A stretch of 64,000 nt of DNA, taken from contig NZ_QKUF01000004.1 in NCBI RefSeq assembly GCF_003253565.1, positions 186,001-250,000 of the forward strand, given 5' to 3'. Shown here in pieces: positions 12,297 through 51,119 of the stretch. Source of the stretch: Thermosporothrix hazakensis. Lineage in GTDB: Bacteria; Chloroflexota; Ktedonobacteria; Ktedonobacterales; Ktedonobacteraceae. The first letter of the stretch is position 1. Every line of letters begins with the position of its first letter. Position numbers and translations under genes: made by a program. The notes under the pieces are model-generated. The model did not search any database. It was not told the origin of the DNA and saw only the letters and a list, made by a program, of their open reading frames with translations.

Positions 12297-12312
12297 TGGC
12301 GCGTACGCGCCA
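12297..12312. repeat. Dispersed palindrome, copy 1
   Basis: TGGCGCGTACGCGCCA, a perfect 16-bp palindrome 13 bp after the kinase stop codon. The same sequence occurs at 34266, 37475 and 49677, and a copy with one terminal mismatch is at 37225. Confidence 0.95.
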
Positions 12313-12391
12313 ATCGTTTTGTTTAGAAATCTGAGTGTTGTGTCAGATTCCCTCACTCCTCTCCTCTTTCACTGTTTTACCTATTTTTCGA

Positions 12392-12423
12392 TACTATTCA
12401 GTACTATTCAGTTTTTCATCAGT
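12392..12423. promoter_or_regulatory. Repeats upstream of the LPMO gene
   Basis: TACTATTCAG is repeated head to tail at 12392-12401 and 12402-12411 and is followed by TTTTTCATCAGT (12412-12423). The last 12-mer also occurs upstream of the GH74 gene at 62324-62335. These may be regulator sites in the 308-bp gap before the LPMO gene. Confidence 0.35.
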
Positions 12424-12592
12424 AGCCGTGTTTGCTTGACCATCATACCTGTCATATGGTACAAGAAAAACAAAAGCGCCCGGAATACTGCTGTTAGATC
12501 ACGGAAAACATGATTAAGGACAACGTTGACGGAGTGCGTTTGAATGTTCGCCGGTTATTGTTGCCAGGGAATAGAGAGGATAGGAGGAATCG

Positions 12593-13609
12593 ATGTTCCC
12601 GCACAGCAAGCAAACGAGATGGGCCGTGCTCGGGCTGGTTCTTGCCGCGTTGATTGTGCCCGCGCTTCTGGCCGCATTTCTTCCCACCCAAATCGTCAAG
12701 GCGCATGGGGCGATGACCTCGCCTGCCACGCGCACCTACTTCTGTTATCTGGAAGGACCCGAAGACCCCGACTCACCGGCCTGTCAGGATGCGGTCGCGA
12801 TAGGAGGAACGCAGCCGCTCTACGACTGGTTCGCTATTCTGATCTCGAACGCAGCCGGGCGTCATCGCGAGATTATCCCTGATGGGCACCTCTGCTCAGC
12901 CGGGACTACCAAGTATGCCGCCTATGACGCCGCTCGCACTGATTGGCCCTCGACAACACTCCAATCAGGCGTAATACATACCTTCAAATATGCAGCATGG
13001 GCTCCCCATCCAGGCACCTTTGAGTTGTATGTCACCCGCGATGGATATGACCCGACGCAGCCGCTCAAGTGGTCCGATCTGGAACCGCTGCCCTTCAATA
13101 CGGTAACCAATCCGCCAATCGTGGATGGCGCATACCAGTGGCAGGCACAGCTTCCCGCAAACAAGAGCGGGCGTCATATCATCTACTCTATCTGGCAGCG
13201 CTCAGATAGCCCCGAAGCATTCTACAACTGTTCCGATGTCGTCTTTACCGGCGGCGGCACTCCGACCACGCCGACCCCGACGCCGACACAAACGCCACTG
13301 ACCTGCAAGGCAACGGTGAAAATCGATAATGCATGGCAGGGCGGCTTCCAGGCCACTATCAGCGTGACCAATACCAGCTCACGTTCAGTTGCTCCCTGGG
13401 AAATTGGCTGGACCATGCAAACAGGTACATCAGTCACGAATGGCTGGAATGCTACCGTTACGCAGTCGGGCTCACAGGTGACAGCGAAAGCTCCCGACTG
13501 GAACCGCTCTATTGCGGCGGGCGGCTCAGCCTCGGTGAGCTTTGTCGCGAACGGGTCATCTAACCCGCCACCAAGCAGTGTCACTCTGAATGGAACAGCG
13601 TGCAGCTAG
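12593..13609 (+). CDS. Secreted AA10 lytic polysaccharide monooxygenase with CBM2
   Basis: A 338-residue copper enzyme that oxidatively cleaves crystalline cellulose or chitin. The signal peptide ends at KA just before H38, which becomes the mature N-terminal histidine of the copper brace (HGAMTSPATR). The second brace histidine is probably H139 (AAWAPHPGTFELY). A TPTTPTPTPTQTP linker follows, then a CBM2 module of about 100 residues (CKATVKIDNAWQGGFQATI ... NGTACS) with bounding cysteines. The CBM2 and the cellulases elsewhere in the window favour cellulose as substrate. The ribosome site AGGAGG is five bases from ATG. The gene sits between two two-component systems. Confidence 0.93.
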   Translation: MFPHSKQTRWAVLGLVLAALIVPALLAAFLPTQIVKAHGAMTSPATRTYFCYLEGPEDPDSPACQDAVAIGGTQPLYDWFAILISNAAGRHREIIPDGHLCSAGTTKYAAYDAARTDWPSTTLQSGVIHTFKYAAWAPHPGTFELYVTRDGYDPTQPLKWSDLEPLPFNTVTNPPIVDGAYQWQAQLPANKSGRHIIYSIWQRSDSPEAFYNCSDVVFTGGGTPTTPTPTPTQTPLTCKATVKIDNAWQGGFQATISVTNTSSRSVAPWEIGWTMQTGTSVTNGWNATVTQSGSQVTAKAPDWNRSIAAGGSASVSFVANGSSNPPPSSVTLNGTACS

Positions 13610-13642
13610 ACAGCCTCTCTGCACTCCTTCGCTTCACAGAGA

Positions 13643-13672
13643 ACGTCAGCCTCTCTTCAAGGCTGGCGTTTC
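13643..13672 (+). terminator. Terminator of the LPMO gene
   Basis: Arms ACGTCAGCC (13643-13651) and GGCTGGCGT (13661-13669) with one G-U pair, then TTTCTC. It lies between the convergent LPMO and NarL-type genes. Confidence 0.65.
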
Positions 13673-13694
13673 TCATCTGAAGGTGTTCACCCGG

Positions 13695-14357
13695 TTACAG
13701 CCCCATTTCACGCGCCTTGATTGCAGCCTGCGTGCGATCACGAACACCCAGTTTGCCGAAAATGCTGCTCAAATGATTCTTGACGGTGCCACCCGTAATG
13801 TAGAGCGCCTCGCTGATCTCCCGGTTAGAAGCACCCCGGGCAACCATTGCCAGAATCTCGCGCTCGCGTTCGGTCAACTGCGATCCCGTGCTTTCCTGGT
13901 GGCTCTCTGGCGGCGCGGCAGGAATCGTCCAGGCCTTTTGAGCGATCTCCGGTTGCAGCAGCATCTGCCCCTGAGCCGCCATCCGAATCGTCATGGAGAG
14001 CTGTTCGGCGGAAATATCCTTCAGCAGATAGCCGAGCGCTCCTGCCCGCAGGCCACTTTGAATAAGCTCGGTATCATCAAAGGTGGTGAGAATCACAATA
14101 TGGCTATCGGGCCAGCGCGTTTTAAAAGCCTGTGTTGCGGCGATACCATCCATTTCTGGCATCCGAATATCCATCAGCACAACGTCGGGGGCCTGCTGCT
14201 GATCCCGTAATTGCTCGGCAAGACGCAGGGCCTCGGCTCCCGAAGAGGCAATGCCCACAACCTCAAAATCGGGCTCCATCTCGATTAACTTGCGAAAACT
14301 CTCGCGTAAAAGGCGCTGATCGTCCACGATCAAGACACGAATGCGTTGTGCTCCCAT
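13695..14357 (-). CDS. NarL/LuxR-family response regulator
   Basis: A 220-residue regulator. The receiver has VLIVDDQRLLRES, VVLMDIRMPEMDG (phosphoacceptor Asp) and GALGYLLKDIS. The C-terminal LuxR helix-turn-helix has LTEREREILAMVARGASNREISEALYITGGTVKNHLSSIFGKLGV. The start at 14357 has AGAGGAGA ten bases upstream. Its stop is 86 bp from the convergent LPMO gene. It is the second gene of a kinase-regulator operon, separated by one base from the kinase stop. Likely targets include its own operon or the divergent VC0807-like gene. Confidence 0.93.
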   Translation of the reverse strand: MGAQRIRVLIVDDQRLLRESFRKLIEMEPDFEVVGIASSGAEALRLAEQLRDQQQAPDVVLMDIRMPEMDGIAATQAFKTRWPDSHIVILTTFDDTELIQSGLRAGALGYLLKDISAEQLSMTIRMAAQGQMLLQPEIAQKAWTIPAAPPESHQESTGSQLTEREREILAMVARGASNREISEALYITGGTVKNHLSSIFGKLGVRDRTQAAIKAREMGL

Positions 14358-14358
14358 A

Positions 14359-15576
14359 TCAATGTATTCTCCTCTTCTGATCTGTATGCATCGGTAGCCT
14401 GACCTCCACTCGCCAGCCTCGACCCGGCTCTGCGCCTGTTCGGAAGGTGCCCTGTAACTCCTCTACGCGTTCCCTCATTCCCTGAAGCCCAAAGCCAGAT
14501 GAGGAAATCGCGATCCCACCACCATCCCCATTATCTAACACCGTCAGTTCAGCCTGCTCCTCATCGGTGCGCAATAGCAGGAGTACCTTGTTGGCCCGCG
14601 AGTGCTTGCTGATATTGGTCAGCGCCTCCTGCGCACAGCGATAGAGGGTACCCTTCTGCTCAGCCTTTGGTTCGACAGTCAATTCGTCCAGGTCAAGCGC
14701 AACCTCACACCCCTTATTCACCACCTCAAACTCAGAAACCAGCCGCCGCACCATGTCAGCCAGCAGTTCCTTCGTTCCCGGGCGCAACGCAGCAACCGAG
14801 CGACGGACATCAGCCAGGCACTCACCGGCAACCCGTCGAGCCTCATAGAGCTCCTGACGCAGGCTCGGGTCACCACGCTCTTCCAGCTTAATCGCGGTCT
14901 CTAACTGTACAGCCAGCAGGGTGAGGGAATGCCCCACCGAGTCATGAATTTCTCGCGCTATCCGGTTTCGCTCACGCATCGTTGACCATTCTTCCACCTT
15001 CTCCGCGTACTGTTGAAGCTGTTCGTTCGCCTCAATGAGTTCCTGATGAGACTGCTTCAGGGCCTCTGTCAATTTCTGGGAATACTTATGCGCTTCGATC
15101 AGTTGCCGCATCACCTTCACCAGCGCAAAGGAGAAAAACAACGATATCAGAAATGAGCCCAGATCACCCAGAGCAAGGCTACCGCCCAGGAAAACCATGA
15201 CAAGAATGCCGGTCAGCCCGAGCCCGGCAATGACAAGAAGCGCAAACCAACCCACGACCGCCGTTGCAATCCCTACACAGGCCGCCGCGGTGAGCCAGTT
15301 GAGCCCGAGTCCAAATAATGCGAGAACAAGAATAGCAGCCGAAAGAAGCGTTAAGAGGAGTAAAAGCAGCGTCCGCATCTTCCCACCTACTCTATCTATG
15401 AGAAAGGCAACTGTTGCCCAGAGTGCGGTACAGACGATACCCACCAGCAGCAACGGAAAAGTCAGATGCCTCGCCGTGAGGACCGAGCTGATAAACCCGA
15501 CGATGCAGCAAAGATAAAAGATAGTATCAAGCCAGCCCCAGGCAACAGGCTGGCGCTCAGGCTTTATCTGGCTCAT
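14359..15576 (-). CDS. NarX/DesK-type sensor histidine kinase
   Basis: A 405-residue HisKA_3 kinase. Several N-terminal membrane helices (from about residue 10 to 150) form the sensor region. A coiled-coil-like stretch (SHQELIEANEQLQQYAEKVEEWSTMRERN) leads to the phosphoacceptor histidine in RIAREIHDSVGHSLTLLAVQLE. The HATPase domain has CAQEALTNISKHSRA, LDNGDGG and SGFGLQGMRERVEEL. The start at 15576 (MSQIKPERQ) has GGGGGAG close upstream and is preferred to the longer frame. The signal is unknown; DesK-type membranes often sense membrane state. Confidence 0.92.
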   Translation of the reverse strand: MSQIKPERQPVAWGWLDTIFYLCCIVGFISSVLTARHLTFPLLLVGIVCTALWATVAFLIDRVGGKMRTLLLLLLTLLSAAILVLALFGLGLNWLTAAACVGIATAVVGWFALLVIAGLGLTGILVMVFLGGSLALGDLGSFLISLFFSFALVKVMRQLIEAHKYSQKLTEALKQSHQELIEANEQLQQYAEKVEEWSTMRERNRIAREIHDSVGHSLTLLAVQLETAIKLEERGDPSLRQELYEARRVAGECLADVRRSVAALRPGTKELLADMVRRLVSEFEVVNKGCEVALDLDELTVEPKAEQKGTLYRCAQEALTNISKHSRANKVLLLLRTDEEQAELTVLDNGDGGGIAISSSGFGLQGMRERVEELQGTFRTGAEPGRGWRVEVRLPMHTDQKRRIH

Positions 15577-15651
15577 GTGCTCCCCCTTATGCAATCCTTC
15601 AATCCATCCCTTGATTATACTGAACCACATACTTCTGTGCCAGTGACACCG

Positions 15652-15661
15652 GTCATATGAC
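15652..15661. promoter_or_regulatory. GTCATATGAC palindrome between divergent genes
   Basis: A perfect 10-bp palindrome. A further GTCAT half-site lies at 15666-15670. It lies between the kinase operon and the VC0807-like gene, 119 bp before the latter, and is a candidate site for the NarL-type regulator. Confidence 0.4.
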
Positions 15662-15779
15662 TCCAGTCATGGGTGTGCTTCCGCGAAGATAGCCCGCAAA
15701 GAATGACCTTTAGCACAAGAAAAACAGCGTCTCCACGGCTATACTGAGGGCAACAAAAACAACAACACGGAGGAAAACA

Positions 15780-16421
15780 ATGAAGAACAGTTTCAGAGGA
15801 CTTATCATCAGTTTAGTTGTCACGGCCGCAGTGCCTTACCTGCTCTTTCTCCTGCTCACCCAACAAATGCACATGCAAGAACTGCTCGCGCTCGGCGTCA
15901 TTTCGATGGTCCCGCTGCTCTACACGCTCAAGGAATTGATCGGAAAGCGTTCACTGGATATCATTGGCCTGATTTCACTGGCAGATATCGTTGTCAGTAT
16001 CGTATTACTGTTGCTGGTTCACAATGCGCAACTCTATATCGCTACCAGCTCGCTTCTTCAGGGGGTGTTCGGAATCATCTGTTTTCTATCACTCTTCTTC
16101 TCAAAGCCATTTATGTTCTATGTTATCAGACAGTTCGCAACTGGCAACGATCCCGAAAAAGTGGCACAGTTCAATCAGCGCTGGCAGCAAGGCTCATCAT
16201 CAATGCGTCATAGTCACCGCGTGCTCACTGTGTTCTGGGGCAGCGCCTTCCTGCTCAACTTCCTGTCAACGGCAATCTTTGCCTGCACGTTGCCTCTCTC
16301 AGTAGCGGTCGGCGTCACCAAAGCCTTCCCGATCTGTGTCGTTGCGCTGGCTATGTTTGGAACCGTCAACTATATTCGCCGTCAAAAAGCGGCCCGGGCA
16401 GCGATGACCCACCAGGCATAA
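15780..16421 (+). CDS. VC0807-like multi-pass membrane protein
   Basis: A 213-residue protein with about six hydrophobic segments and few polar loops, similar in composition and length to the VC0807 family. The middle (KPFMFYVIRQFATGNDPEKVAQFNQRWQQ) is the main cytoplasmic stretch. Function unknown. GGAGG is six bases before the ATG. It is divergent from the NarX/NarL-type pair and may be its target, as with membrane-stress systems. Confidence 0.7.
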   Translation: MKNSFRGLIISLVVTAAVPYLLFLLLTQQMHMQELLALGVISMVPLLYTLKELIGKRSLDIIGLISLADIVVSIVLLLLVHNAQLYIATSSLLQGVFGIICFLSLFFSKPFMFYVIRQFATGNDPEKVAQFNQRWQQGSSSMRHSHRVLTVFWGSAFLLNFLSTAIFACTLPLSVAVGVTKAFPICVVALAMFGTVNYIRRQKAARAAMTHQA

Positions 16422-16442
16422 CACCTATGAGAGGGTTGAAAG

Positions 16443-16523
16443 ACATGTCGCTCTCCCCTTCCATCATCTTTCAAGGTACATCGGGAGAAAGCGACATGTG
16501 GCCCCCTATGCATAGAGGGCCAC
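16443..16523. terminator. Double stem-loop terminator between convergent genes
   Basis: The first stem has arms ACATGTCGCT (16443-16452) and AGCGACATGT (16490-16499), extended by CTCCC/GGGAG. The second is GTGGCCC/GGGCCAC (16498-16523) followed by GCGGAGTTTTAG. Both lie between the VC0807-like gene and the PPOX gene and probably act on both strands. Confidence 0.7.
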
Positions 16524-16531
16524 GCGGAGTT

Positions 16532-16921
16532 TTAGAGGTTCTGACCGGTAACATGCTCCGGTTTGATATAGAGCACCACACGCGGGTCTCCCGACCAACG
16601 CAGATCACTGCCATAGTGCTCGGCCAGTTCGTTGTAAAAATCGCCCTGCGGGTCATCTTCGATACGCTCAACTTTACCCCGGAACTCGGCAGCGGTATAG
16701 GGATTATCAGGCGCGATAATCGCCACTGCAACACGCGGATCACGCTTGATGTTGCGGAATTTCTGCCGGGTCGTCGTGTGCGTAAACTTGATATACTGAC
16801 CATCCCACAGGAACCACATCGGTGATACCTGCGGATCCCCGGCAGGGCCGAGGGTCGCAAGGAAGGCAAAGTTCTTCGATTTCAGGATCTTCTGAACAGT
16901 CGGATTGTTGAGATCAGCCAT
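16532..16921 (-). CDS. PPOX-class (F420/FMN-dependent) oxidoreductase
   Basis: A 129-residue split-barrel flavin/F420-binding protein. The sequence FAFLATLGPAGDPQVSPMWFLWDGQYIKFTHTTTRQKFRNIKRDPRVAVAI is typical of the PPOX-class F420-dependent family, including the basic segment that binds the cofactor phosphate. C-terminal DPRVVLYIKPEHVTG is also conserved. Start at 16921 with AAGGAGG ten bases upstream. The substrate is unknown. Presence of F420-type proteins would fit Chloroflexota or Actinobacteria. Confidence 0.87.
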   Translation of the reverse strand: MADLNNPTVQKILKSKNFAFLATLGPAGDPQVSPMWFLWDGQYIKFTHTTTRQKFRNIKRDPRVAVAIIAPDNPYTAAEFRGKVERIEDDPQGDFYNELAEHYGSDLRWSGDPRVVLYIKPEHVTGQNL

Positions 16922-17037
16922 TGACTTGTTTCCTCCTTTATTGCCTTGGAGTCACATTTTCTCTACGAATGAAACGTGACCAGACGGTACAAATATTCCA
17001 TGACACAGACGCTCTTTCGTATCCGGGTATGGAAACG

Positions 17038-18117
17038 TTACGGAATAATTCGACGGCGACGGAAGTCAGCAAAGACATCCAGAAACATGGCCTCAGTTTC
17101 AACATACTCGTGAAAACCAAATCGACGGACTTTTGATCCATCGGCAAACATATCATAATCCCATGAGAAGACAAAATCACCAAAGGTCCAGGATGACACG
17201 TCTTTATACGGGATCTTCGCCAGCCCATACTTCTCCTGCATCCGCTGCCAGAGCGGTTCTTTATCGGCCATGACGACCTGAAGCGACATCGGCAACGGCG
17301 GCGCGACTTCCAGATCAAAGAAGCGGGCAAGCTTCGGCCACATCTCGGACCAGCGGAAGAGGTCACCATTGTTGATGTTGAAGGCCTGATTGGCGCTGCG
17401 CTCATTTGTGGCCGCCCAGACCGTCGCCCGAGCAAGCAGACCGGCATCGGTCATTTCCAGCAGCGAGTGATATGCACCCGGCTTGCCAGGGAAGCGCAAT
17501 GGTATCCCGAGCTCCTTCGACAGAGACGCATAGACCGCGATCACCATCGCCAGATTCATCGGGTTGCCAAGCCCAAACCCGACGACGACCGAGGGACGAA
17601 TAGCGCTCCAGGTCCAGCGCTTACCTTTCTGCCGCGCCTCAAGGAAAAGTTGCTGATCGACGTTGAATTCTGGCGGCATGTGGAACGCATCGGTTTCGCG
17701 AGCAGGCGTCTTAAAGGGTCCCAGGTGCGCCCCGTAGACCTTGTAGCCCTGCATCAAACTGATATGCTGTAGGACAGGTGACGTTTCCTCAATGGCCTCA
17801 ACCACGTTGACCAGCATCGTCAGATTTGGTTGAACCAGCTCAGCCCAGGTTGGCTTGTCCTGATATGCGGCATAGAAGACGTGGGTAACTGTTGACAGGT
17901 CTTTCAGCTTCTCCCGGGTGTCGGCCTGATCCAGCAGGTCAACCGAGATATGTCGCACACGCTCACTCGATGAGCCACCACGGCGCGACAGACCAATAAT
18001 CTCCCAATCATCAAGCGTGCTCAGATACTGAATAAGGTTCCCACCGATCACACCCTGAGCACCGACAACCAGTGCAACTTTTCGCGTACTCTCATTTCTA
18101 GCAATAGAGTTTTCCAT
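17038..18117 (-). CDS. SDR-family reductase, PRISE-like
   Basis: A 359-residue NAD(P)-dependent atypical SDR. The N-terminal VALVVGAQGVIGGNLIQYL is the dinucleotide site. The segment HISLMQGYKVYGAHLGPFKTPARE and RWTWSAIRPSVVVGFGLGNPMN match the progesterone 5-beta-reductase/iridoid-synthase-like (PRISE) group, which reduces activated C=C bonds of enones. The physiological substrate is not predictable. It is divergent from an HxlR regulator, which is often linked to genes that respond to electrophiles, consistent with enone reduction. Confidence 0.82.
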   Translation of the reverse strand: MENSIARNESTRKVALVVGAQGVIGGNLIQYLSTLDDWEIIGLSRRGGSSSERVRHISVDLLDQADTREKLKDLSTVTHVFYAAYQDKPTWAELVQPNLTMLVNVVEAIEETSPVLQHISLMQGYKVYGAHLGPFKTPARETDAFHMPPEFNVDQQLFLEARQKGKRWTWSAIRPSVVVGFGLGNPMNLAMVIAVYASLSKELGIPLRFPGKPGAYHSLLEMTDAGLLARATVWAATNERSANQAFNINNGDLFRWSEMWPKLARFFDLEVAPPLPMSLQVVMADKEPLWQRMQEKYGLAKIPYKDVSSWTFGDFVFSWDYDMFADGSKVRRFGFHEYVETEAMFLDVFADFRRRRIIP

Positions 18118-18210
18118 TTTATATCTATTATCCTTTCCTGATGGAATTGCTTTTTCTCTTTCCCTCTGTCGAGGTTGTCCATACTATACGCTGAAATGGG
18201 AAGCCCTACA

Positions 18211-18240
18211 AGTACGCACTTTTAAGTAACCTGGGAGTAC
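18211..18240. promoter_or_regulatory. Candidate HxlR operator in the divergent promoter
   Basis: Two GTAC blocks (18212-18215 and 18237-18240) flank ACTT-TT-AAGT, an inverted repeat at 18218-18227. The block lies between the PRISE-like SDR and the HxlR gene and just upstream of the latter's probable -10 (TATAGT, near 18263). Confidence 0.4.
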
Positions 18241-18274
18241 AAAAAAGAACCGACCCTATGGTATAGTATTGAGT

Positions 18275-18670
18275 ATGGAAAGAGTGCTCGAAACATCATC
18301 ACCACACAGCGTTTTGATCGCACACTGTCCCTCGCGGCAGGTGCTTGATCTGATTGCCGACAAGTGGACGGCTCTTGTTTTCGCGCTGCTGGAAAAGCGC
18401 CCCACACGCTTCAATGAGATGCAGCGAGCCATAGAAGGCGTCTCGCATAAGATGCTGACCCAGACGCTGCGCAATCTGGAGCAACGCGGTATTATCGAAC
18501 GAAAGGTCACGTCAACCGTGCCCCCCGCCGTGGAATACTCGCTCTCGCCGCTTGGAACCACGCTCATTCCGCTGATGCGGGCGCTGCGGCAGTGGGCTGA
18601 AGAGCACATGGAGGAAGTTGAGCAGGCTCGTCAGAGCTATCAAGAGAAAGCAGGAAAGGAGCTTGTGTGA
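18275..18670 (+). CDS. HxlR-family transcriptional regulator
   Basis: About 131 residues. The HxlR winged helix is clear: CPSRQVLDLIADKWTALVFALLEKRPTRFNEMQRAIEGVSHKMLTQTLRNLEQRGIIERKV, followed by the wing (PPAVEYSLSPLGTTL). The single N-terminal cysteine before the helix is the redox/electrophile sensor position in YodB/HypR-type members. The start is ATG at 18275 or TTG at 18269; neither has a strong ribosome site. It probably represses the divergent SDR gene. Confidence 0.87.
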   Translation: MERVLETSSPHSVLIAHCPSRQVLDLIADKWTALVFALLEKRPTRFNEMQRAIEGVSHKMLTQTLRNLEQRGIIERKVTSTVPPAVEYSLSPLGTTLIPLMRALRQWAEEHMEEVEQARQSYQEKAGKELV

Positions 18671-18672
18671 AG

Positions 18673-18713
18673 CCAGATCTATCGCGCGGATGCTGCTCGT
18701 GCGATAGATCTGG
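18673..18713. terminator. Long perfect hairpin between convergent genes
   Basis: CCAGATCTATCGC (18673-18685) pairs exactly with GCGATAGATCTGG (18701-18713). It lies between the convergent HxlR and XRE-TPR genes. The following bases are only moderately T-rich. Confidence 0.75.
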
Positions 18714-18740
18714 TCCTGTCGCTTTCTTGTTGGCTTCCAG

Positions 18741-20105
18741 CTACGAACTTAACAGCAGCGTTCCCTGTGTCTGTTCCAGAAAATGCTGTACTATGGGTTC
18801 TGACGGAAAAAGTGTTACCAGTATCTGCTGGTATTCTTTAAAGCGCTGATAGAGCATCGTAGAAGCCGCATTATCAAGCAGCGTGACAGATCGCTCCGCG
18901 ATCCGCAGGCTTGCTTCCAGCTCATGTGTCCGGGCGTAGGCCTCGGCAAGCGGCATCATCGTCAACAGGCAGCGCATAATCCAGACCGGTGAGACCTGCG
19001 TTAGCGAACGTTCCAGATAGCGAATGGCCTCTGCGGGGTTGTCCAGCGACAGACTACAGCTTCCCGCGATCTGGTACCAGCGTGCCTGGTCGTACTCTTC
19101 GTTCGGCTTAAGGCGCTCGGTGATCGCAGCGGAGGCGGCCAGTTTCTCGCGGGTCTCCTCTCTGCGATGCAAGCGAGCAGCATTATACGCCCAATCGGCA
19201 AGGAGATGGGCCTTTAAGCGTACATATCTTTCGTCTTCTTCTCCATTTGACCTGATGAGCAGGTGCAGGGCAGCCTGGATATACTGAAGGGCGTCGGCAT
19301 GATTGCCGCTGGCATTGGCGACCACCGCCAGCCAATTCAAACTCTGGGCCATATTCCAGATATCGGACCCCTCAAGCGCCGCCACATGCGCCTTCATATG
19401 AGATTGATGAGCCTGACAATAGCGTCCTTGATAAAGGTACGCAGCCCCTTGTAGATTGTAGAGTGCCGCATACAGGCTTCCGCGCTGCTGCTCTGGAAGC
19501 AGCTCATGCGTTTGTTGGAGCAGCGTCAGGAGCGCCTGCGCCACCATAAACGTGTGATCCGGACGCACCTGATGCGAAAGCTGCCAGGCAACCGAAACAC
19601 TCTCACTCAGCGTTTGACAGAGCTGAATACGCTCCTTCATACTCACATGCGTCCGCCCGACAAGTGCCACCTTCTGAGCAAGTTGTGCACTATCGCCATG
19701 CAGCAACGCTCGGCGCACCTCTTCAGGCAGCGCCTGCACGCTCTGAAGAATGATCTGCAACACGTCAAGCAGCGCGTGCGGCTTCCACCCTTCATCAAGC
19801 AAGGAGGCTAACGCATATGCAGTCTGGATGAACTGTGTATCGGTTGTCTGCTCGCTTGGTTGCTGCTCTCCGGTGGGCAGCTTCGGTGAAGACTCCTCGG
19901 CCTCGATCAGACCGAGTTCGCGCGATGTCTTCCCGAAATAGCTACAGAGACGCCGCCGCGACTCCGCATTAATCGGGTACTGATGCTCAGCACGCCAGAT
20001 TGTTGCCGCTCCTACTCTGGCTTCATTAGCCAGTTGTTCAATGGTTAGATTGTGTTGATTGCGCAGAATACGAAGGGGGTGCGTCCTTGCTGCCGTCTTC
20101 TTCAT
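18741..20105 (-). CDS. XRE-type regulator with TPR-like C-terminal domain
   Basis: A 454-residue protein. The N-terminal helix-turn-helix (LRILRNQHNLTIEQLANEARVGAATIWRAEHQYPINAESRRRLCSYFG) binds DNA. Residues from about 75 to the end are alpha-helical with repeats rich in Leu/Ala pairs (for example LNWLAVVANASGNHADALQYIQAALHL, WYQIAGSCSLSLDNPAEAIRYLERSL), as in TPR-containing regulators. AAAGGAGG is eight bases before ATG. It is divergent from the GH5 cellulase and may regulate the GH5-GH6 unit. Target and ligand are unknown. Confidence 0.85.
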   Translation of the reverse strand: MKKTAARTHPLRILRNQHNLTIEQLANEARVGAATIWRAEHQYPINAESRRRLCSYFGKTSRELGLIEAEESSPKLPTGEQQPSEQTTDTQFIQTAYALASLLDEGWKPHALLDVLQIILQSVQALPEEVRRALLHGDSAQLAQKVALVGRTHVSMKERIQLCQTLSESVSVAWQLSHQVRPDHTFMVAQALLTLLQQTHELLPEQQRGSLYAALYNLQGAAYLYQGRYCQAHQSHMKAHVAALEGSDIWNMAQSLNWLAVVANASGNHADALQYIQAALHLLIRSNGEEDERYVRLKAHLLADWAYNAARLHRREETREKLAASAAITERLKPNEEYDQARWYQIAGSCSLSLDNPAEAIRYLERSLTQVSPVWIMRCLLTMMPLAEAYARTHELEASLRIAERSVTLLDNAASTMLYQRFKEYQQILVTLFPSEPIVQHFLEQTQGTLLLSS

Positions 20106-22278: not shown

Positions 22279-24135
22279 ATGGACCATGATCCAGAAAACA
22301 GGCGACGCCTCAGACGAGGGGTGCGCGGCCTGGCACTCTTCATGATCCCGCTGCTACTGGTAACAGGAAGTCTGTTTTCCAGTACGCAGGCCATTCGCGC
22401 GGCGTCCTACTGTCAGGTGACGTACACCGTTACCAACCAGTGGCCCGGCGGCTTCGGCGCGAATATCGTCATCAAAAATATCAGCTCTTCAGCCTGGTCA
22501 AGCTGGCAGCTCACCTTTAAGTTCCCCGATAGTGGGCAGCGTGTCTCGCAGGGCTGGAATGGCGACTTCTCCCAGAGCGGGCAGAATGTCACTGTGAAGA
22601 ATTTGAGCTGGAACGGGAATGTTGCGGCGAACGGCACCGTGAACCCCGGCTTCAATGGCACCTTTGGAGCGAGCAACCCTGTCCCGACAGAGTTTGCTGT
22701 CAATGGCAATACCTGCGGTGCAACAGGTAATCCGACACCCACGCCGACCAACACACCTGGAACCCCGACACCGACTAATACGCCCGGAACCCCGACGCCG
22801 ACAAGCACTCCCGTTACTCCAACCCCGACGCCACCACCTTCGGGCGAACGCGTCGATAACCCCTACCTGGGCGCCGTGGGCTATATCAACCCCGATTACG
22901 CGGCAGAGGTCCGTGACGCGGCCAGTAAAGTAGGCGGAACGCTCGGTCAGCAGATGGCAAAGGTCGCCAATTATCCTACCGCTGTCTGGCTTGATCGCAT
23001 CGCGGCAATCACCGGCGGTCCCGGCGTGACTCGCACCCTTGCCGGTCACCTTGATGCCGCACTGGAACAGGCAAGTAACAGCACACTTCCTGTTGTCATC
23101 ACGATTGTTGTCTATGATCTGCCAAACCGTGACTGTGCGGCCCTTGCTTCCAATGGTGAGCTGCTTGTGGCTCAAGACGGCCTGAATAAGTACAAATCGC
23201 AATATATCGATCCTCTGGCCGCTACACTGAGCCAGTCGAAGTACAGCAAGCTGCGCATCGTTGCGATTATCGAGCCCGACTCACTCCCGAATCTGGTTAC
23301 GAACCTCAGTATGGCAAAATGTGCCGAGGCCAATTCCAGTGGCGCGTATGTCAAAGGCATCCAGTATGCGCTGAATAAGCTGTACGCGATCCCCAACGTG
23401 TACAACTATATCGATATCGCACACTCTGGCTGGCTCGGTTGGAGCAGCAACTTTGGTCCCGCTGCTGATCTGATTGCCTCGACAGTGAAGGGCACCGATG
23501 CAGGCGTGAACAGCGTCGCGGGCTTTATCAGCAATACCGCGAACTACACGCCGACCACCGAGCCCTACATGACGGCAAACCAGAATATCAACGGGCAGCC
23601 TGTGCGCTCGGCGAACTTCTATCAGTGGAACGACTACATTGATGAGGCTTCGTATGGAACCGCGATGCGCAACGCGTTTATCAGTCGTGGCTTCCCGAAT
23701 ACGATTGGCATGCTGATCGATACCTCTCGCAACGGTTGGGGCGGCTCTGGACCGCAGGGTTCACGACCGACCGGCCCGAGTAGCTCAACCGATCTCAACA
23801 CCTTCGTCAATCAGTCCAAGATTGACCGCCGCGTCCATCGAGGCAATTGGTGCAACCAGTATGGCGGCATCGGCGCTCGTCCTCAGGCGAATCCGGCCCC
23901 CGGCTTTGATGCCTATGTGTGGATCAAACCGCCCGGTGAGTCCGACGGTGCAAGCCAGCCAGTCGATAACGACGAAGGGAAAGGCTTTGATCGCATGTGT
24001 GACCCGACCTATCATGGCAGCCAGCAGGCAAACGGCGGCAATCTGACCGAGGCCATGCCGAACGCTCCGTTAGCCGGACACTGGTTCGAGGATGCCTTTG
24101 AGCTCCTGGTCAAGAATGCATATCCTGCGCTGTAA
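22279..24135 (+). CDS. Secreted CBM2-GH6 cellulase (cellobiohydrolase type)
   Basis: A 618-residue enzyme. The signal peptide ends near RAA-SYC. An N-terminal CBM2 follows (CQVTYTVTNQWPGGFGANIVIKN ... NGNTC), then repeated TPTPTNTPG linkers, then a GH6 domain of about 440 residues. GH6 marks are AVWLDRIAAITG, the general acid region VAIIEPDSLPNLV, HSGWLGWSSN, WNDYIDEASYG and AYVWIKPPGESDGAS. The large domain with extra loops is closer to bacterial exo-acting Cel6 enzymes than to small endoglucanases, so cellobiose release from the non-reducing end is likely. The start at 22279 has AAGGAG nine bases upstream; earlier in-frame ATGs do not give a signal peptide at the N-terminus. Confidence 0.93.
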   Translation: MDHDPENRRRLRRGVRGLALFMIPLLLVTGSLFSSTQAIRAASYCQVTYTVTNQWPGGFGANIVIKNISSSAWSSWQLTFKFPDSGQRVSQGWNGDFSQSGQNVTVKNLSWNGNVAANGTVNPGFNGTFGASNPVPTEFAVNGNTCGATGNPTPTPTNTPGTPTPTNTPGTPTPTSTPVTPTPTPPPSGERVDNPYLGAVGYINPDYAAEVRDAASKVGGTLGQQMAKVANYPTAVWLDRIAAITGGPGVTRTLAGHLDAALEQASNSTLPVVITIVVYDLPNRDCAALASNGELLVAQDGLNKYKSQYIDPLAATLSQSKYSKLRIVAIIEPDSLPNLVTNLSMAKCAEANSSGAYVKGIQYALNKLYAIPNVYNYIDIAHSGWLGWSSNFGPAADLIASTVKGTDAGVNSVAGFISNTANYTPTTEPYMTANQNINGQPVRSANFYQWNDYIDEASYGTAMRNAFISRGFPNTIGMLIDTSRNGWGGSGPQGSRPTGPSSSTDLNTFVNQSKIDRRVHRGNWCNQYGGIGARPQANPAPGFDAYVWIKPPGESDGASQPVDNDEGKGFDRMCDPTYHGSQQANGGNLTEAMPNAPLAGHWFEDAFELLVKNAYPAL

Positions 24136-24162
24136 AGCTCGTTTCATCACATGGTGTGCCTG

Positions 24163-24194
24163 GCGGGAGGACCAATCGGTTCCCCCGCTTTTTT
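24163..24194 (+). terminator. Terminator of the GH5-GH6 unit
   Basis: GCGGGAGGACC and GGTTCCCCCGC pair with two mismatches around AATC and run into TTTTTT. It also lies at the end of the convergent membrane-protein gene. Confidence 0.75.
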
Positions 24195-24195
24195 A

Positions 24196-34265: not shown

Positions 34266-34281
34266 TGGCGCGTACGCGCCA
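34266..34281. repeat. Dispersed palindrome, copy 2
   Basis: TGGCGCGTACGCGCCA, 44 bp upstream of the amylase start. The identity with copy 4 (37475) extends 12 bp further on the plus strand (CGTCTGCTCGGT), giving 28 identical bases. Confidence 0.95.
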
Positions 34282-35002: not shown

Positions 35003-35003
35003 T

Positions 35004-36957: not shown

Positions 36958-37224
36958 CGATGCGCGTGGTTCCACGAGAACAGCAGAGCCGATTCGCGAT
37001 GCACTGAGCTGCTTGCCTCTTCATATCATCGCTAGCGACGCTCATAAGCCGCACTGGTTCCTGTTTCGAGATCAGAAGAAGTGCTGAACAGAAGCTCATA
37101 CACAAGAGCACTGAGCAAGCACCAAACAAGTCCGGAACGAGATCAGTGCGGCTTCCCTTTTGCAAAGGGCCGATTGGAAATGATGGAAAGACAGAAACCC
37201 GGAAGCCTCATCCTCGCTCTCTAT

Positions 37225-37240
37225 TGGCGCGTACGCGCCC
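37225..37240. repeat. Dispersed palindrome, copy 3
   Basis: TGGCGCGTACGCGCCC: 15 of 16 bases match the consensus, with the last base changed. It is followed after 10 bp by the tandem repeat starting at 37250. Confidence 0.9.
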
Positions 37241-37249
37241 TGCTTGCTC

Positions 37250-37288
37250 GATAGCTTCCCGTTTGATAGCTTCTCTTTTGATATTATC
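37250..37288. repeat. 15-bp tandem repeat beside palindrome copy 3
   Basis: GATAGCTTC begins at 37250 and 37265, and the related GATATTATC begins at 37280, so the period is 15 bp. The units are separated by pyrimidine-rich sequence. Confidence 0.75.
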
Positions 37289-37323: not shown

Positions 37324-39051
37324 CTATAAGTCCTGATGAGAGGCAACGACGGGCAGCCAGACACGAAACGTTGAGCCGCACCCGGGCTGACTCTCTATCT
37401 CAATACAGCCCCGATGTTCTTGAACAATCCAGCGGACAATTGACAGGCCAAGCCCTATCCCTCCTGCTTTCGAGTGGCGCGTACGCGCCACGTCTGCTCG
37501 GTAGAATCGCTCAAAAAGTGAGGGGAGATGTTCCGGAGCGATGCCAGGCCCGTCGTCCTGAATGCAAATACAGGCCCATCCGACAGGCTGCTGAGCTTCT
37601 CTATCTCGTGTCGCATTCTCGTCGCTGCATCCACTCAAGAGACTTCTATTCGCCATTCCTCCTCTTAACAAACTTCCAGTTTCTTCTTCTCCCCGCCCTT
37701 GCAACTCACCCCCTTGTAGCTCTCTCTCCTTCAACGCATCCCCTTCTCGGGTCGGCTCTTTCGCTTCCCGTCCTTGCAACGCATTCCCTTGCAAGGATCG
37801 CTCTTTCAGGGCCTCTTCTCCCGGCATCCCCTCTTCCAACGAGACCATCACCCGCGAGCCCGTTCCCGAAGTATATTTGATTCCGTTAGTCATCAAATTC
37901 AGGCACATACGCACCAGATGTTGCTGATCACCCAACACATAGAGTTCGGGCAGGGAGCCGGTAGCAAGCGTTATCTCATGCTGGCGGGCAAAAGGAAGCA
38001 AGCGCTCGATAGCCGTAACCAACACATCGCTCAGATCAACCGGCTCGCGTTGGAGCGTGATCTGTCCGGCATCGGCACGGGCCAGCATCAGCAGATCATC
38101 TACCAGCGTGGACATCTGCTCGGCTTCCTCTTGAAGTTGATAAGGGAGCTGCCGGTATTCTTCCGGCTTCTCAAGAGCAGTCAGGCCGCGATGGATCTCA
38201 AGGAGCAACAACGTTAACGGCGTACGCAGCTCATGGCTGGCGTCGGCAGTAAAACGTTTCTGGCGTTGGAAGCCCTCTTCTAATCTATCCAGCATGCGGT
38301 TAAAGGTGGCAGCCAGTTCACCAAACTCATCATTGCTTTGCAGGGAGAGACGACGCTGTAGATCGGTCTCGGAGATGGTGTTCGCGGTTCGCGTGATGAG
38401 CTTCACCGGCTTCAGAGCTTTTCCCGCAAGCCAGTAGCCACCAGCCGCAGAGACAAGCAGAATCCCGCTTCCATGCAGCAACAAAATAAGCAGGAGTTCC
38501 TGATTCTCCTGCTGAATCTTCTCCCGAGGCAGCCCGACCAGCAGCGTGACATTCTGTTCTGGCACCGGCGAAATGGAGATATGATAATCGCCCTGTGCGC
38601 GTGGCACGTCGGGCAACATGCAATTCAATGTCATATGACCCCTGGATGCAAGCGCCTGCAATGTCAGGATCGCCCGGTTGCTCAACGGCCCTGCCGTATA
38701 AAGGATGGTTCCGCGCTGGTCAAGCACTACCACCACCTCACTCTCTGGCAGCCTCACGTTTTTGCTGGCAAGCATGCGCTCAAATGCCACACGCCGAACC
38801 ACCGCCTCGCGATATGCATCCGTTAATTGCAGGGCATCTCTGCGCAGCAAGCCATCAAGCTCGGTATCGACTTTTGTCGCGTTCATGTGCTCCTGTGCAC
38901 TATAGAGGCTCCCCCCAAAGACAAGCAGCACCACCATCACGATCGCCAGGTACCAGAGCGTCAGCCGCACCCGAACACGAGCGAGAAAGTTCCAGCACCG
39001 CACCAGAAGCGCTGTCATAGGCCCTGATGGTTCTCTCAATGTCTTATCCAT
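37324..39051 (-). CDS. Sensor histidine kinase (OmpR class) with repetitive in-frame insertion
   Basis: About 575 residues. Two membrane helices (VRLTLWYLAIVMVVLLVFGGSLYS and LLLILLLHGSGILLVSAAGGYW) flank an extracellular sensor domain of about 150 residues. A HAMP domain (LITRTANTISETDLQRRL) leads to the phosphoacceptor H in RFTADASHELRTPLTLLLLEIH. The ATPase domain has the N box LNLMTNGIKYTSGTG, then an unusual insertion of about 80 residues made of imperfect repeats (37585-37830), then DDGPGIAPEHL (G1), FYRADVARTRHSKAGGIGLGLSI (in parts; F and G2 boxes). Palindrome copy 4 encodes VARTRH. The start at 39051 is preferred, with only a weak ribosome site; MPGIRAH at 39099 is an alternative. 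The gene follows its regulator. Confidence 0.87.
   Translation of the reverse strand: MDKTLREPSGPMTALLVRCWNFLARVRVRLTLWYLAIVMVVLLVFGGSLYSAQEHMNATKVDTELDGLLRRDALQLTDAYREAVVRRVAFERMLASKNVRLPESEVVVVLDQRGTILYTAGPLSNRAILTLQALASRGHMTLNCMLPDVPRAQGDYHISISPVPEQNVTLLVGLPREKIQQENQELLLILLLHGSGILLVSAAGGYWLAGKALKPVKLITRTANTISETDLQRRLSLQSNDEFGELAATFNRMLDRLEEGFQRQKRFTADASHELRTPLTLLLLEIHRGLTALEKPEEYRQLPYQLQEEAEQMSTLVDDLLMLARADAGQITLQREPVDLSDVLVTAIERLLPFARQHEITLATGSLPELYVLGDQQHLVRMCLNLMTNGIKYTSGTGSRVMVSLEEGMPGEEALKERSLQGNALQGREAKEPTREGDALKERELQGGELQGRGEEETGSLLRGGMANRSLLSGCSDENATRDREAQQPVGWACICIQDDGPGIAPEHLPSLFERFYRADVARTRHSKAGGIGLGLSIVRWIVQEHRGCIEIESQPGCGSTFRVWLPVVASHQDL
37475..37490. repeat. Dispersed palindrome, copy 4, inside the kinase gene
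   Basis: TGGCGCGTACGCGCCA. It is read on the minus strand as part of V-A-R-T-R-H between the G1 and G2 boxes, where related kinases usually have SRSR-like residues. No length change in the protein is evident at this point. Confidence 0.95.
37585..37830. repeat. Repetitive in-frame insertion in the kinase ATPase domain
   Basis: About 245 bp encode two imperfect copies of a 24-25 residue unit: EEALKERSLQGNALQGREAK and GDALKERELQGGELQGRGEE, with a less ordered tail. Shorter units (LQGNA, LQGRE, 15 bp) are visible within. The insertion divides the strand VMVSLEEG from VGWACICIQDDGPGI. Confidence 0.8.
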
Positions 39052-39100
39052 AACAATTCTTTCTTCTCGAATCTCCCGATGCGCCCTGATTCCGGGCATC

Positions 39101-39793
39101 TCATACGAACTCTCTGGCAGGGTGACGCTGTGGAGAGCGCAAACGATAGCCAATCCCTCGCACCGTTTCAAGCAGCTTGACGGGAAAAGGATCGTCAATC
39201 TTGCGCCGCAAACGCCGGATGTAGACATCAACAACGTTTGAGCTTCCCTCTAGCTCATCGTTCCAGATACGGCTTTCGATCATCTCGCGTGTCACCACCT
39301 GATCGGGATGCAACAGTAAATATTCGAGTAACGCAAACTCTTTCGGCGTCAGCTCAATGACGGTCTCAGCCCGCATCACCTGATGCAGCGCCGGATCAAC
39401 CACCAGATCAGCAAACGTCAGTCGTCCCTGAGGATGACGCCGCCGCTGTAAGGCACGCAACCGCGCAAGCAATTCACGCATGGCAAACGGTTTGACAAGA
39501 TAATCGTCCGCGCCACTGTCCAGGCCCTGGACACGATCGTCAATACTATCACGGGCCGTTAACAGCAAGATTGGCGTCTGCACTCGCCTTCTGCGCAGCT
39601 CGCGGCACACTTCCAGGCCGTCTTTTTTGGGCAGGAGCACATCAAGAATAATCAGATCATAGGAGAGCAATTCCGCTATATCCTGTCCCTCCTGCCCATC
39701 ATATGCGCTATCAACACGGTATCCTTCCGCTTCCAGGTTCTGGCGTAAAGAAAGATTCAGCTTCTGATTATCCTCAATGACCAGTATATGCAT
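39101..39793 (-). CDS. OmpR/PhoB-family response regulator
   Basis: A 230-residue regulator. Receiver motifs are LVIEDNQKL, LIILDVLLPKKDG (phosphoacceptor Asp) and DDYLVKPFAMRELLARL. The winged-helix domain has ELTPKEFALLEYLLLHPDQVVTREMIESRIW and VDVYIRRLRRKIDDPFPVKLLETVRGIGYRL. AAAGGAG is six bases before ATG. It is the first gene of an operon with the kinase downstream. An 11-bp-spaced GATGACA direct repeat upstream suggests autoregulation. The MMPL transporter is divergent. Confidence 0.94.
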   Translation of the reverse strand: MHILVIEDNQKLNLSLRQNLEAEGYRVDSAYDGQEGQDIAELLSYDLIILDVLLPKKDGLEVCRELRRRRVQTPILLLTARDSIDDRVQGLDSGADDYLVKPFAMRELLARLRALQRRRHPQGRLTFADLVVDPALHQVMRAETVIELTPKEFALLEYLLLHPDQVVTREMIESRIWNDELEGSSNVVDVYIRRLRRKIDDPFPVKLLETVRGIGYRLRSPQRHPAREFV

Positions 39794-48049: not shown

Positions 48050-48295
48050 GTGACTACTCAGGGCAGGTCAATTCTGGGTGCTGCCCTTGAGTGGTTCCAG
48101 GACGGCAAGCCCTGCACAGCGGAACAGATGACCCACCACATTCTGAACAGTATTGTAGATGGGGCAGGTGGACTTACTCCGGGCGGCATCCCTGCTTCAC
48201 GAATCACGGTGATACACTCCCGCATAAGAAGCCGTCTCTGTTGCAGTACTGTACAGATTGCACAAATCACGGGTTCTGTAATTGAGATAATTTAG
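48050..48295 (+). CDS. Small hypothetical ORF, possible regulator fragment
   Basis: 81 codons from GTG at 48050 with AGAGGATC upstream. The first half (ILGAALEWFQDGKPCTAEQMTHHILNSIVDGAGGL) faintly resembles the C-terminal ligand-binding helices of TetR-type regulators; the second half is unremarkable. No N-terminal DNA-binding domain is present, so a fragment is more likely than a working regulator. Could be chance. Confidence 0.25.
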   Translation: MTTQGRSILGAALEWFQDGKPCTAEQMTHHILNSIVDGAGGLTPGGIPASRITVIHSRIRSRLCCSTVQIAQITGSVIEII

Positions 48296-48441
48296 CTGTT
48301 TTTCCTCTCTATTCCTCGTGGTACCTTATAACAGAACAGTTTTTTGTACAAATTCACTGAAAGATATACACTGTCAACCGCTCGACCGGTAGAACTGTTG
48401 CTATTTCCACCACGCTGAAAGGAGATAATCCAGGAGGGCGG

Positions 48442-48510
48442 ATGCATGCAATGGCCTGGCAAAAGATGTACCAGATAAAGAAGAGTAGAAAGGAGAGGCT
48501 ACCTCAATGA
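48442..48510 (+). CDS. 22-codon upstream ORF coupled to nirB
   Basis: ATG at 48442 has a strong ribosome site (CAGGAGGGCGG) and opens 22 codons (MHAMAWQKMYQ then a Lys/Arg-rich end KKSRKERLPQ). Its TGA (48508-48510) overlaps the nirB ATG (48507-48509) as ATGA. The nirB ribosome site AAAGGAGAGG lies inside it. It may couple translation or act as a leader peptide; a protein function is not evident. Confidence 0.5.
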   Translation: MHAMAWQKMYQIKKSRKERLPQ

Positions 48511-51119
48511 CGCAGAAGCTTGTAGTCATTGGCAATGGAATGGTTGGAGCGCGCTTTGTCGAGGAGCTTGTCAGGCGACACGGCAACGATTTCTATAGCA
48601 TTACCATGTTCGGTGAAGAGCCATATGGCAATTATAATCGCATCCTCCTTTCCCATGTGCTGGCCGGAGTCGATACCTTCGACACCATTTCCATTCAGCC
48701 GCTTGACTGGTATAGCGCAAACGGGATTCAGTTGCTCACCGGACAGCGCGTCACCATGATTGATCCGGTTCGTCGCGTTGTCCGTTCAGATCAGGGATAT
48801 GAGGCACATTACGACCAATTGGTTCTTGCAACGGGAAGCCGCCCTTTCATTCCGCCACTGGACAATCTCTATGCCGCTCCCTCCCAATTCAAACCCGGCA
48901 TCTTTGTCTTTCGTACGCTTGACGATTGTCGCACCATGCTTGATTTCGCGGCAGGTGCTCGGAGAGCAATCGTACTTGGTGGTGGACTGCTCGGGCTAGA
49001 AACGGCCCGGGGACTGTTGGCTCGTGGATTAGAAGTCCATATAGTGCATGCTTCTCCGGTCCTCATGAACGCGCAACTCGATGAGTCGGCTAGCGCGATA
49101 TTGCTGACCACGTTACAGCGGCTAGGCCTGCATGTCCACCTGGAACGACATACCATCGCAGCCCTCGGTGAGCAACACTTCACCGGCCTGGCGTTTCGCG
49201 ACGGCTCGACGCTCGATGGCGATATGCTGGTGATCTCAACCGGAATTCGGCCCAATACCGAGCTTGCGATACAGGCCGGATTAACCGTCGAGCGCGGGAT
49301 TCTCGTTGATGATACGCTTGCCACGTCCGATCCTGCTATCTTTGCGATAGGTGAATGTGCACAGCATCGAGGCAAGACGTATGGGATTGTCGCACCTCTC
49401 TGGGAGCAGGCTCGCGTCCTTGCTGAGCGTCTGACACATGCACACACTCTTGCTCACACATCTGCTAACACGCTTACCAGCACATCTACTGACACACCAT
49501 CACACACACCTGCTAACATATCTGCTAACACACTCTCTAACACATCTGCTAACATATCTACTGACACACTTCACAGCACTTCGCCAAACATTCTCACTCA
49601 CATGCTTTATAAGGGCTCAAGCCTCTCAACCAGACTAAAGGTCATGGATATCGAACTTCTTGTTCTGGGGGAAGATTGGCGCGTACGCGCCAAAGACGAG
49701 GTTCTCTCGTATGCTGAGCCTGAGAAGGGTATCTACAAAAAGATACTCATCCGGGAGAATCGTTTAGAAAATGCAATTCTACTGGGCGACTGCTCGGGTG
49801 CGGCTCGCCTGCAACATTACTTTGAGCGTAAACAGCCGCTTCCCGAGAATCGCGCCGAGTTGCTCATATCCCTCTTCAACCTCGGGGCACTCAATTCCGG
49901 GCTTTCTCTTGACCCCGCTCAGGAGCTGGCCGAGCTGCCGGACGATGCCCAGATCTGTAACTGCAACGGTGTGACGAAAGGCACGATTATCGCGGCGGTT
50001 AAGGCGGGCAAGCGCAGCCTTCCTATGCTCACGGCAGCAACGCGGGCCGGTACCGGTTGTGGCTCCTGCAAGGGACAGGTGCAGGTACTGCTGGAGCTTG
50101 CCGCAGGCAGCGAGTTGATTGAAGACCCCTCGATTCACTACTACGTGCCGGGTGTTCCCCTGCGCAAGCCAGAACTGGTGCAGGCAATCAAGGAACAGCA
50201 ATTACGTAGCGTCTCCGCAGTCTTCAAGGCGCTCGCCAATGGTAAGGAGGACCCACAGAGCAAGGCCGGGCTGGCTTCGCTACTCAAAATTATCTGGGGG
50301 AAGGAGTACGAGGATGAACGAGATGCCCGCTTTATCAATGACCGTGTACACGCCAATATCCAGAACAATGGCACGTTCAGCGTCGTACCGCGTATCTATG
50401 GAGGCATCACCTCTCCGCAAGAACTTCGTCGGATCGCGGATGTCGCAGAAAAGTATCAGGTGCCGATGGTCAAGCTCACCGGAGGGCAGCGCATCGATCT
50501 GCTAGGCGTGCGTAAGGAGCACCTGCCCGCCGTCTGGCGCGAACTCGGAATGCCCTCAGGTCATGCCTACACAAAAGCCTTCCGGACCTGTAAAACCTGC
50601 GTCGGCAGCGAATTTTGTCGCTTCGGCCTGGGCGATAGCACAGCGCTCGGGGTCAAAATCGAACAACGCTTTCAAGGGATTGAATCGCCCCATAAACTGA
50701 AGCTTGCCGTCTCGGGATGTCCCCGCAATTGTGCAGAATCAACAACAAAGGATATCGGCGTTGTTGCTATCGAGGGCGGCCAGTGGGAAATCTATATCGG
50801 TGGGGCAGCGGGCTCTCGCGTACGCAAAGGCGACCTTCTCTGCACTGTCAACACTCATGATGAGGCCCTTCAGCTTATCGGGCGCTTTATGCAATATTAT
50901 CGGGAACACGCCAGGTATCAGGAACGAACCTATGCATTTGTAGAGCGCATCGGCATCGAACGGATACGCCAGCTTCTGCTTGAAGATGTTGAAGGCATCG
51001 CCACACAGCTCGATCAGGCGATTCAGGAAGCGGTTGACGCCTATCGCGACCCCTGGCAGGAAGCGGAGCGACCCGTGACCGCGAATCAGTTTGCTGAAGT
51101 GCTCGCATACACAGAATAG
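48507..51119 (+). CDS. nirB: Nitrite reductase [NAD(P)H] large subunit with Thr/Ser-rich insertion
   Basis: An 870-residue assimilatory-type NirB that reduces nitrite to ammonia in the cytoplasm. The FAD/NAD reductase domain (about 1-310) has VVIGNGMVGARFVEEL and AIVLGGGLLGLETARGL. A Thr/Ser/Asn-rich insertion of about 60 residues follows (49435-49615), then YKGSSLSTRLKVMDIELLVLGED resumes the family sequence. Next is the BFD [2Fe-2S] domain, CNCNGVTKGTI with GTGCGSCKGQ. The sirohaem domain has the cluster cysteines in CKTCVGSEFCRFG and SGCPRNCAEST. Palindrome copy 5 lies just after the insertion. NirD follows 13 bp downstream. Confidence 0.93.
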   Translation: MTQKLVVIGNGMVGARFVEELVRRHGNDFYSITMFGEEPYGNYNRILLSHVLAGVDTFDTISIQPLDWYSANGIQLLTGQRVTMIDPVRRVVRSDQGYEAHYDQLVLATGSRPFIPPLDNLYAAPSQFKPGIFVFRTLDDCRTMLDFAAGARRAIVLGGGLLGLETARGLLARGLEVHIVHASPVLMNAQLDESASAILLTTLQRLGLHVHLERHTIAALGEQHFTGLAFRDGSTLDGDMLVISTGIRPNTELAIQAGLTVERGILVDDTLATSDPAIFAIGECAQHRGKTYGIVAPLWEQARVLAERLTHAHTLAHTSANTLTSTSTDTPSHTPANISANTLSNTSANISTDTLHSTSPNILTHMLYKGSSLSTRLKVMDIELLVLGEDWRVRAKDEVLSYAEPEKGIYKKILIRENRLENAILLGDCSGAARLQHYFERKQPLPENRAELLISLFNLGALNSGLSLDPAQELAELPDDAQICNCNGVTKGTIIAAVKAGKRSLPMLTAATRAGTGCGSCKGQVQVLLELAAGSELIEDPSIHYYVPGVPLRKPELVQAIKEQQLRSVSAVFKALANGKEDPQSKAGLASLLKIIWGKEYEDERDARFINDRVHANIQNNGTFSVVPRIYGGITSPQELRRIADVAEKYQVPMVKLTGGQRIDLLGVRKEHLPAVWRELGMPSGHAYTKAFRTCKTCVGSEFCRFGLGDSTALGVKIEQRFQGIESPHKLKLAVSGCPRNCAESTTKDIGVVAIEGGQWEIYIGGAAGSRVRKGDLLCTVNTHDEALQLIGRFMQYYREHARYQERTYAFVERIGIERIRQLLLEDVEGIATQLDQAIQEAVDAYRDPWQEAERPVTANQFAEVLAYTE
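49435..49615. repeat. 12-bp-periodic minisatellite inside nirB
   Basis: TCTGCTAACA occurs at 49461, 49521 and 49545, and TCTACTGACACAC at 49485 and 49557. The distances are 60, 24 and 72 bp, all multiples of 12. The repeat is in frame and encodes T-S-A-N and T-S-T-D-type units. It is absent from the usual NirB alignment between the NAD domain and the YKGSSLSTRL segment. Confidence 0.88.
49677..49692. repeat. Dispersed palindrome, copy 5, inside nirB
   Basis: TGGCGCGTACGCGCCA, read as W-R-V-R-A. This is a different codon phase from the copy in the kinase gene. It is about 62 bp after the end of the minisatellite. Confidence 0.95.

Follow-up and report, generated by a model that had tools for sequence, protein, structure and literature searches.

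A dispersed 16-bp palindrome is very probably the private parS of a secondary replicon in Ktedonobacteria

Canonical chromosomal ParABS systems comprise a ParA-ParB operon and multiple dispersed copies of a 16-bp palindrome, TGTTTCACGTGAAACA or a close variant, near the origin. The secondary replicons of Burkholderia cenocepacia (the Bsr family) possess perfect 16-bp palindromic parS sites, with a different sequence for each replicon of the same cell (PMC5450999, PMC7022226). The Bsr sites have a T-rich 5' end and a six-bp core with a central CG (PMC5450999); chromosome II carries six parS copies (PMC7022226), and chromosome 1 keeps the canonical parS. The parABm/parSm system of the Thermus thermophilus megaplasmid (PMC4409726) and the ParABS system of Streptomyces SCP1 (PMC13245405) each have their own non-canonical inverted-repeat site, and show no cross-reaction with the respective chromosomal systems. 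Changes in a small number of DNA-binding-domain residues can alter the specificity of ParB and Noc (PMC7383237). For Ktedonobacteria, large accessory replicons of a chromid-like nature, with parA located near the GC-skew origin, were described in 2026, and no parB was reported on any of the ECE-like contigs (PMC13289182).

The stretch of DNA analysed here (64,000 nucleotides; hereafter the window) corresponds to positions 186001-250000 of a 299-kb contig, C5, in a fragmented MAG (7.28 Mb, 88 contigs, 10% CheckM contamination), so that a C5 coordinate equals the window coordinate plus 186000. A preliminary description of the window had noted five copies of a palindrome, beyond what chance would give, and we confirmed this: the 14-mer GGCGCGTACGCGCC has five exact matches (starts at 12298, 34267, 37226, 37476 and 49678), the order-2 Markov expectation in the window being 0.001. 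Scanning the window for GGCGCGTACGCGCC with up to two mismatches yielded nothing beyond the five exact copies, and the shuffled window gave a mean of 0.27 matches at the same tolerance and never reached five. In full, the repeat reads TGGCGCGTACGCGCCA, a perfect palindrome of 16 bp with GC-rich arms and a TA centre, which is retained in four of the five window copies and nine of the ten copies on C5.

Site 1 of the candidate parS (12297..12312, exact) is intergenic, 13 bp past a histidine-kinase gene (11196-12284, + strand; Pfam HATPase_c/HisKA). Site 2 (34266..34281, exact) lies between an alpha-amylase gene (32096-34222, - strand) and a second amylase-family gene (34846-36957, + strand), and site 3 (37225..37240), also intergenic, is the single exception to the perfect 16-mer, matching at 15 of 16 bases and ending in C, as had been noticed before. 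Site 4 (37475..37490, exact) is embedded in a histidine-kinase gene (37324-39234, - strand) and read there as VARTRH, and site 5 (49677..49692, exact) in a gene for a nirB-like nitrite reductase (48507-51119, + strand) and read as WRVRAK. The earlier reading of these two genic copies was correct, and its assignment of the other three to intergenic regions holds as long as the antisense frames that cover 34266 and 37225 are disregarded. The genes around the window sites, as annotated by Pfam, are accessory ones: amylases, a lytic polysaccharide mono-oxygenase, histidine kinases and nirB. The window also contains a 1268-aa open frame (24196-28002, - strand) with a strong strand AT skew (0.32 over 24001-28000).

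The 14-mer was found 12 times in the 7.28-Mb genome, where ~0.04 copies are expected. Ten exact copies are on C5 (198298, 220267, 223226, 223476, 235678, 253968, 263102, 279694, 280272 and 285817), one is on contig C24 (position 16296) and one on contig C2 (position 853990). What had been described as a dispersed repeat is thus largely a property of one contig (binomial P of at least 10 of 12 copies falling on C5 = 8e-13). The ten C5 copies span 88 kb (198298-285830), and the cluster extends to ~118 kb once a degenerate site at C5:298190, which deviates by one central base and shares its A/T flanks with many other sites, and the likely neighbouring contig C24 are counted. The copy on C2 is probably a chance occurrence, as it is flanked by C..C, not T..A, and lies inside a gene 4 kb from dnaA. 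The genome has two full-length dnaA-like genes, at C2:858219 and C15:51990.

A parA-parB pair is located inside the cluster. parA (C5:280796-281989; AAA_31, E = 3e-35; CbiA/ParA, E = 3e-19; KGGVGKT motif, P0002) is directly upstream of parB (C5:281996-283123), which begins 7 bp beyond parA and encodes a 375-aa protein with both ParB_N (the CTPase domain; E = 3e-13) and HTH_ParB (E = 6e-11) above the cut-off. Two palindromes, 279694 and 280272, precede parA by 1.1 and 0.5 kb, respectively, and a third, 285817, follows parB at 2.7 kb. The closest solved structures to the C5 ParB by phmmer were Noc, the best PDB match, and then Spo0J/ParB, and its GHRR and ENRYREDLTP motifs align with those of Noc/Spo0J and other ParBs. 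A single-sequence structure prediction was poor (pLDDT 46) and left unused. A ParB-family search of the genome picked up three genes, one each on C15 and C7 and one inside the cluster (C5:282149-282421). A scan of genome contigs with peptide patterns of this ParB gave no match. The locus thus combines a ParA Walker ATPase, a ParB encoded downstream and repeated inverted-repeat sites near parAB, as in type-I ParABS systems with an HTH-ParB. We consider the palindrome very likely to be the parS of a type-I ParABS system on a secondary replicon of Ktedonobacteria, either a chromid or a megaplasmid, to which the C5 ParB would bind. Of the roles offered in the preliminary description, chromosome organisation comes closest to such a replicon-specific parS cluster, and methylation and a mobile hairpin found no support. 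A type III CRISPR-like module (C5:270100-279577, L029), with the RAMP family confirmed for one gene, lies just upstream of parA.

The same genome carries two further ParABS systems. A chromosomal-type parAB, separate from that of C5, was detected on C15, and exact copies of the canonical parS GTTTCACGTGAAAC are present on C15, C18 and C27 as well as on the 73-kb contig C30, where 33 of them (32520-64144, L084-L086), most within ~8.5 kb, form an unusually dense array. We saw neither a chromosomal-type parAB nor a canonical parS on C5, and TGGCGCGTACGCGCCA does not belong to the canonical chromosomal parS class. The third system is on C7, with parAB at 11078-13315 and the palindrome TGGTTTCGCGAAACCA at 7045-19691 (L094); all eight exact 14-mers of TGGTTTCGCGAAACCA in the genome surround this parAB, and TGGTTTCGCGAAACCA is of the class found in Ktedonobacter relatives.

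The C5 locus shares with canonical chromosomal ParABS the ParA-ParB operon and multiple dispersed 16-bp palindromes near an origin, but its site differs in sequence, and the canonical set of the genome is on separate contigs. Like the Bsr systems, it has a perfect 16-bp palindrome that is replicon-specific and present in several copies, with the canonical parS kept for the chromosome. Nevertheless, TGGCGCGTACGCGCCA falls outside the Bsr class, as it is GC-rich with a central TA, and it has approximately twice the number of copies over ~88-118 kb. A replicon-specific ParB with its own non-canonical site is also what Thermus parABm/parSm and SCP1 possess, whereas those systems have one 14-bp site or three sites around the respective operons and the C5 set consists of 11-12 dispersed sites. 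A ParABS system with a private parS is of a kind already known; here the sequence of the site is unusual, and its layout unusually dispersed. We found no paper with a match in a literature search for the exact 14-mer.

If TGGCGCGTACGCGCCA is genuinely a parS, other ParAB loci should carry palindromes of their own. Of the other secondary ParAB loci examined, all but that of G011 indeed had a recurring 16-bp palindrome of their own beside parAB; for G011, no repeated palindrome was detected on a contig of just 12 kb. The locus whose ParB is nearest to the C5 ParB (G009:C177) carries TGGCTCGGCCGAGCCA, in which 12 of the 16 positions agree with the C5 site; five of its seven genomic copies are beside parAB and two are elsewhere. 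TGGTTTCNNGAAACCA occurs as three dispersed copies in each of G016, G020 and G023, with one copy ~50 bp before parA, and in G007 as four copies, exact or nearly so, across 31 kb, with one ~110 bp before parA. G030 has GGTCTTAYGTAAGACC three times, and in Candidatus Chlorohelix allophototropha a complete plasmid of 375 kb carries exactly three copies of GTTTTCGCGAAAAC, all of them grouped around parAB. The C5 sites are spread far more widely than those of C7, G009 or Chlorohelix. As controls, 30 of 33 ParB-free 20-kb stretches lacked any palindrome cluster of at least three, and the remaining three, all from G016:C2, share a single unrelated palindrome, TCCATGCTGGCATGGA. The latter forms pairs with a spacing of 35-70 bp at several places on G016:C2 (L158, L159 and L161) and is probably part of a repeat element.

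We take G016:C2 to be the ECE-like contig of K. robiniae, both being 2,645,227 bp in length. The C5 locus resembles the chromid-like replicons of PMC13289182 in belonging to the class Ktedonobacteria and in having parA near a putative GC-skew origin; unlike in that report, the K. robiniae contig carries a parB (1487148-1488215) adjoining parA, together with three TGGTTTCNNGAAACCA sites as candidate parS. Two copies of another sequence, TAACGTTAACGTTA, were observed 39 bp apart in a conserved gene (~670 aa) in the vicinity of parAB, next to recurring words similar to AAAAGTCG (G016:C2, 1494222; G020:C2, 848381; G023:C8, 1210675; G007:C5, 139467). We rejected these pairs as the parS of the relatives, given their position within a gene and next to recurring words, which may be iterons, and TGGTTTCNNGAAACCA fits better. 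The gene region with TAACGTTAACGTTA and the AAAAGTCG-like words may serve these replicons as replication origin and initiator. Querying C5, an incomplete contig, with the putative rep gene of the relatives found no replication initiator.

Every 10-kb step along C5 shows a negative GC skew. At its right end the contig enters a repeat. Two contigs, C24 and C10, have their start within this repeat and carry its other end. Both of them have positive skew, so that, with either as the next contig, a change of sign falls where C5 ends on the right (~16 kb from parB), and the palindrome cluster ends where this change occurs. In G016 and G007, the skew also switches its sign at the parAB/parS region. 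By the repeat alone C10 is an equal candidate, which weakens the C5-C24 join as a unique one; C24 is favoured as it bears the only other T..A-flanked copy of the palindrome, 16 kb from the joining end. C24 is the likely neighbour of C5. No tRNA genes were found on C5 and C24 (~395 kb), and C5 is presumably not part of the main chromosome.

The alternative that survives best, albeit an improbable one, is that TGGCGCGTACGCGCCA is an operator of a Noc-like or nucleoid-structuring protein and lies near parAB by chance. The spread over 88-118 kb, partly within genes, is unlike a compact plasmid centromere, and the rank of Noc among the structural matches of the C5 ParB is in favour of a Noc-like protein. 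Nevertheless, the only parB found on C5 sits in the cluster with parA directly upstream, and the other ParAB loci of the group show the same layout with palindromes of their own.

It is less probable still, indeed very unlikely, that the cluster reflects a small mobile palindrome, or duplicated fragments of the kinase, having spread recently with no function of their own. Three of the sites, 34266, 37225 and 37475, are within 3.2 kb, and the last encodes part of RADVARTRH in the kinase. The 35 bp around site 2 (34259-34293) reproduce the region of the kinase site at 97% identity, and the 44 bp around site 3 (37211-37254) do so at 80%, so that three of the five window copies are not independent in origin; their sequences are consistent with sites 2 and 3 being short local duplications from the histidine-kinase gene. 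However, the flanks of the remaining copies appeared unrelated, with no common element seen in a comparison by eye; identity is perfect in the core and not in the flanks, and the position around parAB and beside the skew change is left unexplained by such a spread. The genic copies on C5 are translated as VARTRH, WRVRAK, NGAYAP and MARTRQ, and the use of all three codon phases among them supports the earlier proposal that the DNA itself is kept, not the protein.

HIP1 of cyanobacteria is a genome-wide motif, and an iterated palindrome of this sort, or a restriction-methylation motif, which TGGCGCGTACGCGCCA resembles in being exact, strongly over-represented in the window and both genic and intergenic, is practically refuted here by the genome-wide count: TGGCGCGTACGCGCCA is confined to one replicon, and elsewhere only background remains, with 36 further sites at two mismatches vs 38 for the reversed control and zero to two copies per genome in 60 relatives. 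The likening to HIP1 in the preliminary description accordingly fails, the palindrome being restricted to C5 with one copy on the likely neighbour and one probable chance copy. The reversed 14-mer has no copy in the genome, and the control counts put the background at ~0.04 exact copies per genome. Stray 14-mers in relatives (one each in G007 and G023, two in G009) were rejected as parS, as they are not clustered with parAB. Those at G007:C2:888654 (L024) and G023:C8:905784 (L025) are the centres of loopless perfect palindromes of 46 and 64 bp, respectively, with different arms. In 84,980 species scanned for WTGGCGCGTACGCGCCAW, 42 stretches matched and none had two sites. Many of the matches are one orthologous site, present once per genome in Halomonas/Vreelandella (L107, L108, L110-L114 and others), with conserved flanks and an open frame that encodes MARTRH in most of those read.

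As the parS of C5, each TGGCGCGTACGCGCCA would be bound by a ParB dimer via its helix-turn-helix, and ParB would load there as a CTP clamp and slide onto the adjoining DNA. The 11-12 loading sites over ~88-118 kb beside the origin would then build up a single large partition complex for the neighbouring ParA ATPase to move to daughter cells. Both the segregation role of this ParABS system and the use of CTP by its ParB are predicted.

Judging from the sequences compared, each secondary replicon in Ktedonobacteria, a group of soil bacteria, seems to bear a private version of parS. We lean slightly towards the view that a fast-diversifying family of ParB and 16-bp parS (often TGG-N10-CCA) prevents interference among coexisting replicons in this class, and that the centromere on C5 may have been expanded in a chromosome-like style to 11-12 dispersed sites over ~118 kb, partly seeded by short local duplications. 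As nearly every ParAB examined has its own palindrome, these loci supply a natural set of matched ParBs and sites, extending past the ParB/Noc pair, with which changes in ParB specificity can be studied. The palindromes are also usable as a sequence tag to assign contigs of fragmented genomes to replicons. For at least some of the large secondary replicons of Ktedonobacteria, in which parA was reported without a detected parB (PMC13289182), the system described here would offer the missing centromere and ParB.
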